Shown here: positions 4,745 through 10,258 of the stretch, piece by piece | Numbering within the stretch: position 1 is the stretch's first letter | Layout: each line of letters opens with the position of its first letter | IMG/VR virus record: IMGVR_UViG_3300034118_000928 | Span: 1-24,646 of that record | Reading direction: 5' to 3' (one strand) | Origin: a virus | DNA length: 24,646 nt | The notes under the pieces: generated by a model | Databases searched by the model: none | Seen by the model: the letters and a program-made list of their open reading frames with translations, nothing else | Told to the model about the DNA's origin: nothing | Program-made: the position numbers and the translations under genes

Positions 4745-5167
4745 CTACTCGCCGCCCTCGGTCGCGGCGATGATGAGCGGGATCGGGCGATCGTCGATGC
4801 TGCCGAGCTTCTGTTCGACCCGGCGGGGAGCGTTGAGACCATCGAGCTCGGCGAGGTCGGCGAGGGCCTTCTGACAGATCGCCGCCGCCTTCTCGTCACC
4901 GGACACCGCCTTGTGATAGTAGGCGGCGTAGATCGACTCGAGCCGATCGCGGTGCAGGTTGCGGTACTCCTCGGCGGGCTCGCGGAGCGTCTCGCGGAGC
5001 GCGGCGAGGACGGCCTTGTGGGCTCCGGATGCGTTCGCGTATCCGAGGGCTTCGGCGATCTCCTCGAACGTCCGCCCGGCCTTGCGCATGCGCAAGGCGT
5101 CCGCCTGCCTCTCGTTGGCGGTCATCCCCCTTGTACTTGCTTTAGGTATACCTCGTGGTCGGGACAT
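4745..5167 (-). CDS. terS: Terminase small subunit, DNA-recognition protein, 140 aa
   Basis: TerS binds the packaging site on phage DNA and hands it to TerL. Residues 20-58 form a helix-turn-helix-like segment (ADALRMRKAGRTFEEIAEAL then GYANASGAHKAVLAAL). A helical stretch follows (REPAEEYRNLHRDRLESIYA, 62-81), as expected for oligomerisation. The ATG at 5167 has GGAGA 5-6 nt upstream, and a promoter-like sequence lies at 5208-5234. It is the first gene after a 1.4-kb non-coding stretch that may hold its target site. Identification rests on the HTH, the size and the position directly before terL. Confidence 0.88.
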   Translation of the reverse strand: MSRPRGIPKASTRGMTANERQADALRMRKAGRTFEEIAEALGYANASGAHKAVLAALRETLREPAEEYRNLHRDRLESIYAAYYHKAVSGDEKAAAICQKALADLAELDGLNAPRRVEQKLGSIDDRPIPLIIAATEGGE

Positions 5168-5207
5168 TGATTCTCCGGCGACAACACTAAGCCGGGGTAT
5201 AGTCCCC

Positions 5208-5234
5208 CTATTAGCAGTATACGCTAAACGTCAA
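5208..5234 (-). promoter_or_regulatory. Putative promoter for the packaging/head operon
   Basis: Read on the minus strand, TTGACG (5234-5229) is followed after 15 bp by TAATAG (5213-5208), preceded by TG at the extended -10 position (TGCTAATAG). A transcript would begin near 5201, about 35 nt before the terS ATG. The -35 lies within CTTGACGTTT, a word shared with the element at 11493-11553. The spacer is 2 bp short of ideal, so the extended -10 matters. A GGGG/CCCC mini-hairpin lies just downstream (5193-5208). Confidence 0.5.
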
Positions 5235-6547
5235 GTCGGCAGAACCGGAGCGACCAGGCGCGAGACGTTCTCGCGTCGCAACGGAACGTCGAGGGGATCG
5301 GTATGACGAGAACAGGGGTGCGTTGGCTAGTCGATCGGCCAGCGATGGCTCGCGGTGAGATGACCAGTCGATCGGCAAGACGCGGACGGCGAAGACACGG
5401 TGTGGTTAGTCGGGCGAGGCGATGCGCGGTGAAATGCCGACGGCATGACCAGTCGCGAGCGGGGTCGAGGGATGGCACAGGACGGACAGAGTCGGCGTGT
5501 CGATAGTGTGAATCGGGACGGCGAGAGTAGTCGACGGGGATCGGTGGGGGCAGGCTTGGCCTGTCGGTCGGGGCGTGGTGGGTCAAGGGAAGGCATGTCG
5601 GCGGGGCTTGTCGTGGTAAGGGACGGGATGTCGCAAGGGGCGGCAAGGCACGGGATGTCGATCGGCGCGCAGGGGTAAGCGGACGGGATGGCATGTCGGC
5701 GGGCGAGGCTGGCGTTGGCTCGGCATGGCTAGTCGAGCGTGTCGTTCCGTTGGGCTGTGGATTGTCGAAGGCGAGGTTAGGACTCGTGTGGTCAAGGGCG
5801 GACCCGGCTTGTCGTTGTGTAGCGTGTGGTGATGGTGTCGTGTGGCCCTGGTCAGTCGTCAGAGACGTAGTGTGCGGGATTGTCTAGTCTGTTGCGGTGT
5901 TCTGTTTCGGCTGGGCTCGAGGGGTGTTGGGTTGTCGTTCGCGGCGATACGCCGTGAGTTGTCGGTCGCAGCGGAAGACGGCGGCGTGGGCTGGCATGTC
6001 GCGTGGTCAGGGATGGCTCGTGGGGGCTAGTCGGGTGTGACGTGACGGCGAGTATTGGCATGAGGTGGCTCGTCGTGCGCTCAGGGGTAGGGGCGGATCG
6101 TGAAGTCGTCATGTTTCGTCTAGGTGCGCTGTGACAAGTCGGCGGCGGTGACTCGGTCAGGATCGTGGTGTCGGCTTGTCCCGGTGCGGTTCGTCGAGGA
6201 TCGTGTTGTCGGTGGTCGCGCAGAGACATGACAAGGCCAGGCCAGTCGGGAGTCCACCTGTCGCGACCGGACGATAGCGCAGGTCGTTGCGCTGACGCCT
6301 TCGCCATATCCGCCGGAAAGGATCGGCGTGACCCGGGAGGAGTACCGGGAGGCGTTGACGCTATCGTCCGGTCGCGACTGGTCGGCTCCGTGTGGGCACG
6401 ACTTGCGTAGTCGCTCGCGATGGCATGTCGAGCATAGTCGATCGATCTGTGGCGCGCAGGTACGACAAGGTTGGTGTTGTCGATCGCCGGGATGCGGGCC
6501 GATGGTGCTGCGAGAGGGGTAGTCGCCAGCGTCGTGTCGGATCGTGA
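5235..6547. other. Long non-coding control region, rich in YAGTCG and GGSATGTCG words
   Basis: No credible gene was found here. The plus strand is G-rich and C-poor, and open frames on the minus strand are Pro/Arg/Ser-rich with no ribosome binding site. TAGTCG occurs at 5328, 5407, 5528, 5730, 6028, 6408, 6435 and 6520, and CAGTCG at 5365, 5450, 5853 and 6243: 12 hits where well under one is expected for random sequence of this length. GGCATGTCG occurs at 5592, 5690, 5993 and 6422, and GGGATGTCG at 5625 and 5652. ATGACCAGTCG occurs twice (5360, 5445). The region separates the early operon end from terS, so a packaging site, replication origin or regulator-binding array are the reasonable candidates. 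None is proven. Confidence 0.7.
6254..6384. repeat. Perfect 20-bp inverted repeat enclosing nested hairpins
   Basis: GTCGCGACCGGACGATAGCG (6260-6279) is repeated as its exact reverse complement at 6359-6378, and pairing resumes outside one mismatch (6256-6258 with 6380-6382). Inside are a second stem (6295-6300 with 6350-6355, extendable by wobble pairs), a hairpin of CGCC/GGCG plus ATCC/GGAT (6302-6328), and a hairpin CCCGG/CCGGG (6332-6349). Together these make a branched, multi-stem fold about 120 nt long. It contains no convincing gene and no U-tract, so it is not a standard terminator. It could be a structured RNA, a DNA cruciform at an origin, or a packaging signal. Confidence 0.8.
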
Positions 6548-6578
6548 CCGGGGGCGCGGGACGATGCCCGGCCCCCGG
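6548..6578 (-). terminator. GC-rich hairpin after the last early gene, possible terminator
   Basis: CCGGGGGC (6548-6555) pairs with GCCCCCGG (6571-6578), and CGGG/CCCG continue the stem with a single bulged base and a 6-nt loop. It lies 10 nt beyond the stop of the last early gene. There is no U-tract on the minus strand, so intrinsic termination is plausible for a high-GC host but not certain. Confidence 0.6.
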
Positions 6579-6587
6579 CAGATAACG

Positions 6588-7349
6588 CTAGAGGCGGTCG
6601 AACCCGACGACCTTGAACTGTCCGTGTGACTGCGAGCGGAGCGCGCCGAGGCCGCTATCCTGCAAGTAGAGGAGGATGTGCCGCCACTGGTCGCCGGTGA
6701 TGCGCTCCTTTCCGTCGGCGGGGTCGATGATCGAGCGGATCACGAACGAGATCCGGGGGCGTTCGCAGTAGTCGTACTGGGTCAGGGTCGAGCGGCTGCC
6801 CTGCGGCCCGCTGACGACACCGTGCTGGGTCCAGGTGCCGTCCGGCTCCCGGCGACCGAGGTGCACCTTCTGCCCCTCGACGAAAACCCACTCGCTGATC
6901 GCGTTCTTTGCGCCCTTCTTCGTCTTCCCCCACCGGTCGCCGGCGTAGAGGACGGCGACGGCTTCCTTCACGCCGGACTTGATCTGCCGGGTCTCGATGA
7001 ACAGTCCGTTCTCGTCGCGTTTGAACGTGTTCCCGTGACGCTCCGCCCCGACCTTTTCCGACGCGGCGATGATCTCGTCGAGGGTCGCCGTCTCCGGCGT
7101 CTCGACGCCGAGGTCGAGCAGGGTCTGCCGGACGATGCTCGCGAGCTCGGCGTCCGAATCAGGGCCGAGGCCCATCTTCGACCGGATCCACCCGGCGATC
7201 AGGTCTGGCTTCTGCGGGACGCCCCCCATGACCTTGTCGGTGAACTGGCAGTCGACGCGATAGCGGACGTACATCTTGTCGGTGTCGGTGTCGAAGATCC
7301 CGATGATCGGGGTCGCGTCGGTGATCGGGCGATCGCTGACGATGGTCAT
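6588..7349 (-). CDS. Phage protein with Cas7/RAMP-like features, 253 aa, function unknown
   Basis: I do not recognise a named family. Three segments, in order, resemble landmarks of the Cas7-type RAMP fold: FIETRQIKSGVKEAVAVL (117-134), at the place and with the pattern of the family's I-P-G-S-S-x-K-G-A-x-R motif; QYDYCERPRISFVIRSI (191-207), like the Y-E-R-V-x-P-G-x-x-F-x-F-x-I strand; and GLGALRSQSHGQF (233-245) near the C-terminus, like the glycine-rich loop G-x-G-x-x-R-x-x-G-F-G. A charged helical insert lies at about 55-105. ATG at 7349 has GAGGAG 8 nt upstream. It is the last gene of the early/replication block, behind an unknown helical protein and RusA, with no cas neighbours. An unrelated phage nucleic-acid-binding protein with a similar glycine-rich end is the main alternative. 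Confidence 0.88.
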   Translation of the reverse strand: MTIVSDRPITDATPIIGIFDTDTDKMYVRYRVDCQFTDKVMGGVPQKPDLIAGWIRSKMGLGPDSDAELASIVRQTLLDLGVETPETATLDEIIAASEKVGAERHGNTFKRDENGLFIETRQIKSGVKEAVAVLYAGDRWGKTKKGAKNAISEWVFVEGQKVHLGRREPDGTWTQHGVVSGPQGSRSTLTQYDYCERPRISFVIRSIIDPADGKERITGDQWRHILLYLQDSGLGALRSQSHGQFKVVGFDRL

Positions 7350-7360
7350 GTGATTCTCCT

Positions 7361-8011
7361 CTAAGACTTCGCGAGCTTGCCTACCTTGCCCGTCGAGTAC
7401 GGTGCAAAATTCGTGTGAACGACTCCTCCCTTCATCGCTTCCAGTCGATCATGTGACCGCTTGATCACACGAGTGGCGAGCATCGCCAGTTGTGTCTCGT
7501 CGAGGACCTCTCCGGCGACCTGGCCGGGAGAGAGGCGGTCGGCGATCTCGCGGCAGAGCATGGCCCGCCGCTTCGCCTGCACGGATTCGGACTCGCGGTA
7601 CTCGGCGGCGACGATGAGCTCCTCGCGGGTCATCGACAGGATCGGGACGTCGATGCCCTCGATCGGGTGCCGCTCGAAGAACCGGGCCACCGGGTTGTCG
7701 TTGTCGTCTTTCGCGTTGCGGATGTTCTCGATGATCTTCGCCCGCCTGCGGGACGACATGACCGAGACCATGTGCTCGGCCTGCTCCCGCTTCCGTTCAT
7801 AGGTGTCGGAGACCTCGACCTTGCCGTTGATCGCTTCGAGGGCGAGGTAGCGCAGCGACTCGCGGACGAACGCCTCGAGGAGCGCGGGAGACTGTGCGTA
7901 CTTTTGAATCGCGATCGCCACGAGCTCGTCGGGGTCGCGCTGCGCGCCGTCGTGCTGGGTCTTCGCCCACCGGACGAACGCGTCGATGGCCGGGAAGTCC
8001 TTCGCGTGCAT
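7361..8011 (-). CDS. Conserved-looking phage protein of unknown function, 216 aa
   Basis: Not recognised. The protein is almost entirely helical by eye and charged, with a basic cluster SSRRRAKIIENIRNAKDD (86-103) and a C-terminal half rich in Arg, Glu and Ala (EYRESESVQAKRRAMLCREI, 137-156). No membrane segment or cysteine cluster is present. ATG at 8011 has GGAGG 7 nt upstream. It sits 2 nt after the RusA gene and 11 nt before the RAMP-like gene, so the three are surely co-transcribed. Position suggests a role in DNA replication or recombination, or as a partner of the RAMP-like protein, but no motif supports either directly. Confidence 0.85.
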   Translation of the reverse strand: MHAKDFPAIDAFVRWAKTQHDGAQRDPDELVAIAIQKYAQSPALLEAFVRESLRYLALEAINGKVEVSDTYERKREQAEHMVSVMSSRRRAKIIENIRNAKDDNDNPVARFFERHPIEGIDVPILSMTREELIVAAEYRESESVQAKRRAMLCREIADRLSPGQVAGEVLDETQLAMLATRVIKRSHDRLEAMKGGVVHTNFAPYSTGKVGKLAKS

Positions 8012-8615: not shown

Positions 8616-9065
8616 CTACTCCTCTTCGACTTCATGGACGACGACGCCGGCGTCCTCGAGCGTGTCGCGAACGATGTCCCAGCCATCCGGAATCGACGCC
8701 GACGGGAATGTCACACTGTAGATGCCTGCGGCGATGATGAGCAGCGCGCAGGTCGGACACGGTGCCTGCGTGACGTAGAGATCGCGACCGGCGACAGCCC
8801 ACCCGATGCGGGCGGCCTTGACGATCAGCGCAGCCTCGGCGTGAAGGTGCCGGGCATGGTCGCGACCGGTTCCGGCGACGCCCTTCTCGACGAACTCGCA
8901 GCCGACCAGGCGGCACGGCTCGACCTCGATCGGGGTACCGTTCGCGGTGGCGAGGAGCACCTCGCCGTCCTCGACGAATGCGGCGGCGACAGCGGCGGCT
9001 GGGCAGGACTGCTCCTCGATAGCGAAGCGTCGCAGAACCGCGAGCGTCTCGCTGCTACTCGGCAT
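8616..9065 (-). CDS. dCMP/cytidine deaminase-family enzyme, 149 aa
   Basis: This is a zinc-dependent deaminase of the CDA/dCMP deaminase fold. Phage members usually convert dCMP to dUMP to feed dTMP synthesis. The active site is clear: HLHAEAAL (73-80), with His75 a zinc ligand and Glu77 the proton shuttle, and APCPTC (101-106), with Cys103 and Cys106 as zinc ligands. Extra Cys51, Cys56, His70 and His73 upstream could form the second, structural zinc site seen in phage T4-type dCMP deaminases; that is inference. The ATG at 9065 has GGAGG 6 nt upstream, and the start overlaps the previous gene by 11 nt. It could instead act on another cytosine substrate; no thymidylate synthase lies in the window. 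Confidence 0.9.
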   Translation of the reverse strand: MPSSSETLAVLRRFAIEEQSCPAAAVAAAFVEDGEVLLATANGTPIEVEPCRLVGCEFVEKGVAGTGRDHARHLHAEAALIVKAARIGWAVAGRDLYVTQAPCPTCALLIIAAGIYSVTFPSASIPDGWDIVRDTLEDAGVVVHEVEEE

Positions 9066-9288
9066 CGTCGACCTCCTCGGTGAGCATCTCGACGGCGGAG
9101 AACCACCTGGACTCGCCGGCGATCGGGCCGCAGTCTAGGCGGACGAGGTAGCGGGTCGGCATCTTCGTCTTGGCCTCGTAGGTGATCTCGCCACGGTGGC
9201 CGGCGTACTTCGCCGTCTCCTCGACGGTCCACGCTTTCGCCCGAACGATGACCACGCGGTCACCGATAGCCGGTGTAATTTCTTTCAT
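9055..9288 (-). CDS. Small hypothetical protein, 77 aa, probable beta-barrel
   Basis: Not recognised. Short alternating strands (GDRVVIVRAK, RGEITYEAKT, RYLVRLDCG, RWFSAVEMLT) look like a small SH3-like or KOW-type barrel, seen by pattern only. ATG at 9288 is preferred (GGAGGAG 9 nt upstream); a TTG at 9294 is also in frame. The first 29 nt overlap the end of the nuclease gene in another frame, and the 3' end overlaps the deaminase start by 11 nt, so it is translationally linked to both. Confidence 0.78.
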   Translation of the reverse strand: MKEITPAIGDRVVIVRAKAWTVEETAKYAGHRGEITYEAKTKMPTRYLVRLDCGPIAGESRWFSAVEMLTEEVDDAE

Positions 9289-10258
9289 AGTCAATGTCTC
9301 CTCCTTTCGTTTCTAGATCGTATTGCGAAGCGCACGAGATGCAATACAGAGATGTCTTTATTGTGTATCTATCGTAAACATTGATTCTTCCAAAGATTGT
9401 TTCATCTTCTCCGATTTTGACGTAATCATAGATTGTGATGTCTTCTCCATAAGATGAGTATTCGTATGCTTCAAGAATGCACTCGCATTCTCTACAAAAG
9501 AAAAGCGGATGCTCGCCTCTATGGTGATAGAACGATTTTGTCGTCCATAGTTCTTGAGATGGATCGATTGATCTCGTCGATCCCACTGTCCATCCCTTTC
9601 CCCTTCTCGTATACTTGATCCGGTTCGTTCTAATCGGCACTGGGTTAGTTCCGCCGATACCGCCCTTCCCTACAAATGAAACCAACAACAATGTGTTGCC
9701 ATACTTGTCTTTTGTCTCTCCGTGAATAATCCCTGCACCGAATGTCGGATGAAAGAAACCGTCCATCTCCTCGTCGACCCGACAGTCGAATAGCTTTTGT
9801 CCGACCACGATCGACGGCGTCGGGGCGTTCCACTGCGGGAACGCTTCACGAACTCGCTTGATTGCCTCGTCCCATCGTGGGTGATTGTGTGGACGTTCTG
9901 TGGATATGATCTCGCCGATGCGGCCATCTGGTTCGACCAGTCGGTGAGCATACATACCAGGGCGGCCAGCGAGGACGAGAACCTGCTTCCCGGTCGCGCC
10001 GGCGAGGGCGATCTGCTTTGCGTAGTCGTCGGGCAAGCTGCCCTTGACCTCGACGAAGACATCGAGGGTGAAAGAGAAAAAGTCGGGGATGTAGTAGAGG
10101 CCGGGGATACGGTTCTTACCACTGGTCGGCTCGGGTTCGAGCTCCCAGCCGAGCGTGTCGCCGACGATCCTCCACATCGCCTCGGTGATCGAGCGATACA
10201 CGATGCCGTTCAATTCGACGGCAACCCCGGGGATCGCCCTTCTCTCGTCGATGGTCAT
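9260..10258 (-). CDS. PD-(D/E)XK nuclease fused to an AT-rich cysteine-containing C-terminal region, 332 aa
   Basis: The N-terminal part resembles a phage PD-(D/E)XK nuclease: YRSITEAMWRIVGDTL (21-36, Glu26), a Glu/Pro-rich strand, then YYIPDF (55-60, Asp59) and VFVEVKG (67-73, Glu70-x-Lys72). That gives the three expected catalytic positions. Residues about 150-332 are different: a beta-rich stretch (GKGGIGGTNPVPIRTNRIKY, 197-216), then cysteines FFCRECEC (253-260) and YCISCA (305-310) that could bind one zinc. The DNA for this second half (9300 to about 9790) is strikingly AT-rich; 9361-9420 has about 32% GC by hand count against about 70% in nearby genes. ATG at 10258 has GAGGGGAG 3 nt upstream. 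The function of the second half is unknown; the substrate of the nuclease is not evident. Confidence 0.85.
   Translation of the reverse strand: MTIDERRAIPGVAVELNGIVYRSITEAMWRIVGDTLGWELEPEPTSGKNRIPGLYYIPDFFSFTLDVFVEVKGSLPDDYAKQIALAGATGKQVLVLAGRPGMYAHRLVEPDGRIGEIISTERPHNHPRWDEAIKRVREAFPQWNAPTPSIVVGQKLFDCRVDEEMDGFFHPTFGAGIIHGETKDKYGNTLLLVSFVGKGGIGGTNPVPIRTNRIKYTRRGKGWTVGSTRSIDPSQELWTTKSFYHHRGEHPLFFCRECECILEAYEYSSYGEDITIYDYVKIGEDETIFGRINVYDRYTIKTSLYCISCASQYDLETKGGDIDYERNYTGYR

Follow-up and report, generated by a model that had tools for sequence, protein, structure and literature searches.

The locus and its phased array

The window analyzed here is the whole of a linear 24.6-kb virus contig from IMG/VR (24,646 nt). 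Between two genes on its - strand lies a noncoding stretch of 1.4 kb (positions 5171 to 6587). One flanking gene, at the terS position (4745 to 5167, - strand), encodes 140 aa and falls in PHROG 645; the RNase E label of that family is probably attached to a mislabeled small terminase, or else it is a genuine RNA-processing annotation. The other (6588 to 7349, - strand) is a candidate for the vipr gene of Viral Interference Programmable Repeat (VIPR) systems and encodes 253 aa with a predicted RAMP fold and a conserved C-terminal G-loop, GLGALRSQSHG. A 216-aa gene directly upstream of vipr (7361 to 8011, - strand) is a candidate vap; no known family was matched. Its position is conserved, several relatives having a gene of about 200 aa at the same place relative to vipr. 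Further along the window, a patch at 9001 to 9750, overlapping part of the gene at 9260 to 10258 (- strand), has a GC content of 44 to 54% against approximately 66% and is perhaps a recent insertion.

The 253-aa protein matched no family in Pfam, NCBIfam, or PHROG. Its AlphaFold model (mean pLDDT of 75, pTM of 0.63), compared with the PDB, matched the CRISPR RAMPs Csm3 and type VII Cas7 with Z scores of 10 to 12 (up to 12.2), and the homolog in contig L028 gave sequence-profile matches to Csm4 and type IV Cas7. Microcystis phage Mae-JY09 and several other viral contigs encode homologs with 33 to 82% identity; no Vipr relatives were found in GTDB genomes or PLSDB plasmids. In all 10 arrays analyzed (a set that counts the window and has two pairs of close relatives), the phased stretch adjoins the RAMP gene; it lies on the downstream side in nine cases and on the upstream side in L022. 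Thus, gene and array form a unit. The intergenic stretch beside the gene is 1.4 kb in the window and about 0.4 to 2 kb in the relatives.

The initial annotation of this DNA had concentrated on a hairpin within the noncoding stretch and overlooked the more important feature, the surrounding 1.4-kb array phased at 5 nt and the adjoining RAMP gene. The stretch is strongly G-rich on the + strand with near-random dinucleotides, and it is regarded as a candidate vrRNA array (5171 to 6587, + strand) of 5-nt G-phased repeats, with runs bounded by GTCG and interrupted by the hairpin at approximately 6249 to 6389. GTCG occurs 48 times on the + strand, compared to 7 to 8 occurrences of its complement. 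On the gene strand, C is found at positions +3, +8, +13, and +18 after CGAC in about 75 to 100% of copies in most arrays, most other positions being near random, and in the cleaner arrays successive CGACs are mostly spaced by 5n+2 or 5n+3. The G autocorrelation summed over lags 5, 10, and 15 was 0.425, which is 9.1 standard deviations over dinucleotide shuffles, and this lattice signal was confined to the noncoding stretch and seen nowhere else in the window. The on-lattice G was present at 70 to 90%, the two variable bases (NN) were near uniform, a second G was present at 40 to 58% in most arrays, and the third position was C or G and only weakly pyrimidine. The GTCG-bounded runs mostly comprise 1 to 9 repeats, with the longest, of 15 to 16 repeats, in L021. 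In three related arrays, those of the window, L007, and L017, it is mainly the hairpin that breaks the lattice.

The arrays of the window and L007 are unrelated, lying between flanks that are approximately 90% alike, as expected if they carry hypervariable guides. When the three related arrays were compared (window 5171 to 6587, L007:6360-7500, and L017:8800-10060), five NN strings of four dinucleotides were common to them, against 0.42 in shuffles, with none of 1,000 shuffles reaching five. The scaffold bases around such strings differ, as in GGCTG GCGTT GGCTC GGCAT GGCTA in the window and GTCTG GCGTT GACTC GTCAT GGTTA in L017. Sharing of NN strings on differing scaffolds is what the VIPR code predicts and, at the level of sequence comparison, independently supports such a code; it also offers a purely computational check of it. 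Guide turnover would appear to be fast, with arrays replaced wholesale between near-identical genomes and some codes persisting. A search for targets allowing a skip of 0 to 3 nt, made over 0.2 Mb of loci and with little power, found no excess over shuffles, and one stretch of an L021 guide, 10 repeats long, had no exact target among the viral contigs scanned. The L007 array also contains a terminator-like hairpin with a T-run at 6492 to 6536 on the - strand of that contig, its GG strand, which suggests that the GG strand may be transcribed.

Comparison with VIPR and other systems

VIPR was reported in 2026 (bioRxiv) as a possible ancestor of CRISPR. According to the main text of the report, a phage RAMP protein, Vipr, acts with vrRNAs of alternating GGY and NN motifs; the NN dinucleotides recognize DNA with one base skipped, and rival phages are the targets (PMC13142463). 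The consensus given there is YNNGG/GGY, with related consensus sequences allowed and 9 to 16 repeats per vrRNA; a vap accessory gene acting on DNA is among the features of membership, and some vrRNA arrays are interspersed with hammerheads (PMC13142463). Seven types are distinguished in its supplement, where staggered arrays are also mentioned (PMC13142463).

The present locus resembles VIPR, as described in that main text, in its phage-encoded RAMP fold (predicted here) with an RRM core and G-loop, in the long adjoining intergenic stretch of pentanucleotide repeats with a fixed G and variable dinucleotides, and in the NN strings common to several phages despite different scaffold bases. It differs in that the GG strand, here and in the relatives, is opposite to vipr; in that the runs are bounded by GTCG and mostly shorter than the published 9 to 16 repeats, a comparison made here run by run; in that the scaffold is nearer GGS than GGY; and in the one branched, conserved hairpin that the array contains. 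The weakly pyrimidine third position, the short runs, and the targets not found all count against the VIPR reading. We nevertheless consider it very probable that the hairpin stands in a VIPR array. The locus is described here as VIPR-like, and its array architecture may already be among the types in the supplement of PMC13142463; its main text makes no mention of the branched element inside the array.

As a positive control, the type II VIPR phage SUSP1, whose vipr gene was identified by position and G-loop, gave the same lag-5 G signal beside its RAMP gene with the same method. In type II, as represented by SUSP1, vipr and the vrRNAs share a strand, and every vrRNA carries a structured 3' tail, whereas here the GG strand is opposite, the array holds one structured element, and no fold signal was found after each run. 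Since such tails are absent, the locus was not filed as type II. Aligned to SUSP1 Vipr with hhalign, the 253-aa protein matched in the C-terminal G-loop region only, without significance. The candidate Vipr of SUSP1 and its neighbor (L034:28031-29061) correspond to PHROG families 4652 and 5926, both labeled as of unknown function, and the RAMP gene was present in 129 phage records, a few Gordonia and Mycobacterium phages among them.

The class 1 CRISPR RAMPs Csm3 and Cas7 share with this system the predicted fold and a guide RNA with regularly recurring fixed positions, but CRISPR repeats are absent here and the period is 5 nt rather than 6 nt. The hammerhead-interspersed vrRNA arrays of PMC13142463 likewise place a structured RNA within the array, although the present arrays have one element each, with a long and variable outer stem. 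No match to the Rfam hammerhead models was obtained in the arrays of the window, L007, and L017 at permissive E values, or in seven other loci at the gathering score.

The branched hairpin and its homologs

The initial annotation had described an exact 20-bp inverted repeat here, and this is borne out: the arms at 6260 to 6279 and 6359 to 6378 are complementary at 20 of 20 bp and separated by 79 nt. With mismatches allowed, the repeat extends to 31 nt at 90% (6249 to 6279 and 6359 to 6389). Across 60 dinucleotide shuffles of the 1.4-kb region, no perfect inverted repeat exceeded 12 bp, and the number of 20-bp repeats expected by chance is approximately 3e-7; the repeat is real and far beyond chance. 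The multi-way fold proposed for it was also recovered in shuffle-controlled folding of both strands. The RNA fold of the + strand is branched at -76.3 kcal/mol (z = -5.8) and that of the - strand is branched at -75.7 kcal/mol (z = -6.8), with none of 200 shuffles equally stable in either case; z is inflated for C-rich strands, whose shuffles fold weakly. Single-stranded DNA of the element folds equally well (z = -7.1). As had been claimed, no known element accounts for the structure: no Rfam family matched at the gathering score (permissive thresholds gave sub-threshold microRNA models only), a tRNA search of the element found none, and a scan of the region found neither an intrinsic (U-tract) terminator nor a sigma-70 promoter. 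An independent 8.3-kb contig (L006/L013) contains both arms and is identical to the window throughout the noncoding stretch, making an assembly error unlikely.

Using a covariance model (R1; 6264 to 6374 in the window, - strand), the element was also found in L006, L007 (6903 to 6986), and L017 (9347 to 9466), with folds on both strands. L007 carries a TerL 98% identical to that of the window, and L017 is linked through the neighboring RAMP gene (79% identical); each has a single homologous element, located in the corresponding intergenic region. Three inner motifs are conserved in the same order on the + strand in the window and L007, namely AGCGCAGG (6276 to 6283), GCCTTCGCC (6297 to 6305), and GCGTTGACGC (6352 to 6361), and are diverged in L017, where they read GGCGCTGG, GGCTGCGCC, and GCCTTGACGC, respectively. 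Each homolog starts shortly after a GTCG boundary; the location in the array varies and the core is kept.

The initial annotation had proposed a search for conserved pairing in related phages, and such pairing was found. The outer-arm sequences differ among the homologs, and 20 to 21 of 26 positions are Watson-Crick paired in both members of a comparison. Among the retained pairs, two-sided changes numbered 5 between the window and L007, 10 between L007 and L017, and 14 between the window and L017, and the compensatory signal appeared in the correct register only. These changes, from three distinct sequences only, constitute strong evidence of selection for pairing, and judged by them the hairpin is evolutionarily maintained. 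The fold z scores of the three homologs were -6.8, -4.7, and -6.5 on the gene strand, compared with -5.8, -3.0, and -3.4 on the array strand.

The hairpin is known from three related phages, with none found in the other Vipr-associated arrays; the covariance model found no further member in other Vipr-positive contigs. Weak matches in G001 and G007 were rejected, as the conserved motifs are missing. A loose consensus pattern run against viral and GTDB contigs gave 15 viral and more than 120 genome matches, which are attributed to chance: apart from the three known elements, the loci scored reached at most 27 bits and had no comparable array.

Possible roles of the hairpin

Of the roles suggested by the initial annotation, structured phage RNA is the option left standing, since two relatives keep the pairing through compensatory changes, and the packaging signal finds no support. 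On balance, we favor the reading that the hairpin is a clade-specific branched RNA element of a VIPR-type vrRNA array, likely with a boundary or processing role; that role, taken by itself, is put forward tentatively. Within the vrRNA array, the inverted repeat would close, as its outer stem, a branched RNA element some 110 to 145 nt long. We infer that + strand transcription, in the orientation opposite to vipr, yields the array RNAs and that these act as guides: RAMP subunits would hold the fixed G positions of the 5-nt repeats, and the two variable bases of each repeat would read the DNA of rival elements. Sitting between two guide blocks, the hairpin would most likely be a structural boundary of a long transcript, with a role in processing, loading, or termination through which guide RNAs would be kept apart or protected. 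Of the available readings, an element that bounds, processes, or terminates the guide transcript needs the fewest assumptions, though the limitation of the hairpin to three related phages counts against it, as do the gene-strand folds, which are the better ones in each of the three.

The stronger gene-strand scores in three of three homologs would instead fit a hairpin that acts on the - strand, in the 3' part of the vipr transcript, and either stabilizes the mRNA or blocks read-through antisense to the guides; vipr does converge with the GG strand of the array. However, the element lies approximately 200 to 600 nt past the vipr stop codon at a variable distance, a separate strong hairpin is found directly 3' of that codon in the window and L017, and the C-rich composition of this strand inflates the z scores; the explanation retains a minor share of our confidence.

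A role as DNA, in which a cruciform or folded single strand serves replication start, recombination, or guide entry, is unlikely. The origin cruciform suggested by the initial annotation belongs here and gained no positive support. It would accommodate the equally good fold of single-stranded DNA, the need for pairing with free arm sequence, which a cruciform shares, and the rapid turnover of arrays between near-identical flanks. The unpaired conserved inner motifs are at least as well suited to RNA or protein binding, though, and no integrase, initiator site, or genome end was linked to the element in this analysis. Less likely still is that the branched element represents a new catalytic or recombination module, either a ribozyme or folded site cutting the long transcript at the regularly spaced GUCG boundaries or a site of guide entry.

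A cos or pac packaging signal, one of the roles suggested by the initial annotation and favored by the location upstream of the gene at the terS position, is highly improbable: the element lies inside a guide-like array following a RAMP (Vipr-like) gene, tracks that gene and array, has vipr, not terS, as its nearer neighbor in the window, and is present in L017, whose terminase was not among the matches when the TerL of the window was used as the query. A small MITE-like mobile element, for which inverted-repeat termini around a short center and the more distant arrays lacking it would speak, and an assembly artifact are both largely refuted and scarcely credible, as the terminal repeats vary with pairing retained, the opposite of ends recognized by a transposase, and the independent contig is identical across the region. 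A search of these contigs for an rve-family transposase found none.

Under the favored reading of a boundary or processing element, the conserved branched element could shed light on the way in which long vrRNA transcripts are cut, brought to an end, or diversified. The locus adds a phage lineage whose guide-like arrays hold about 30 to 40 GTCG-bounded runs and occupy the strand that does not encode vipr.

A RAMP gene with a 5-nt-phased array and no hairpin was recorded in L021, L022, L023, L026, L028, L029, and L018 (Mae-JY09, 38460 to 38860). In L029 (5953 to 7002), the vipr frame is broken by stops and the array signal is weak, so that this system is possibly decaying. Mae-JY09 has a GC content of 73%, which is odd for a Microcystis host, and a match to the int-alpA RNA (RF02996; 37.8 bits) was found on its + strand at L018:9698-9762.
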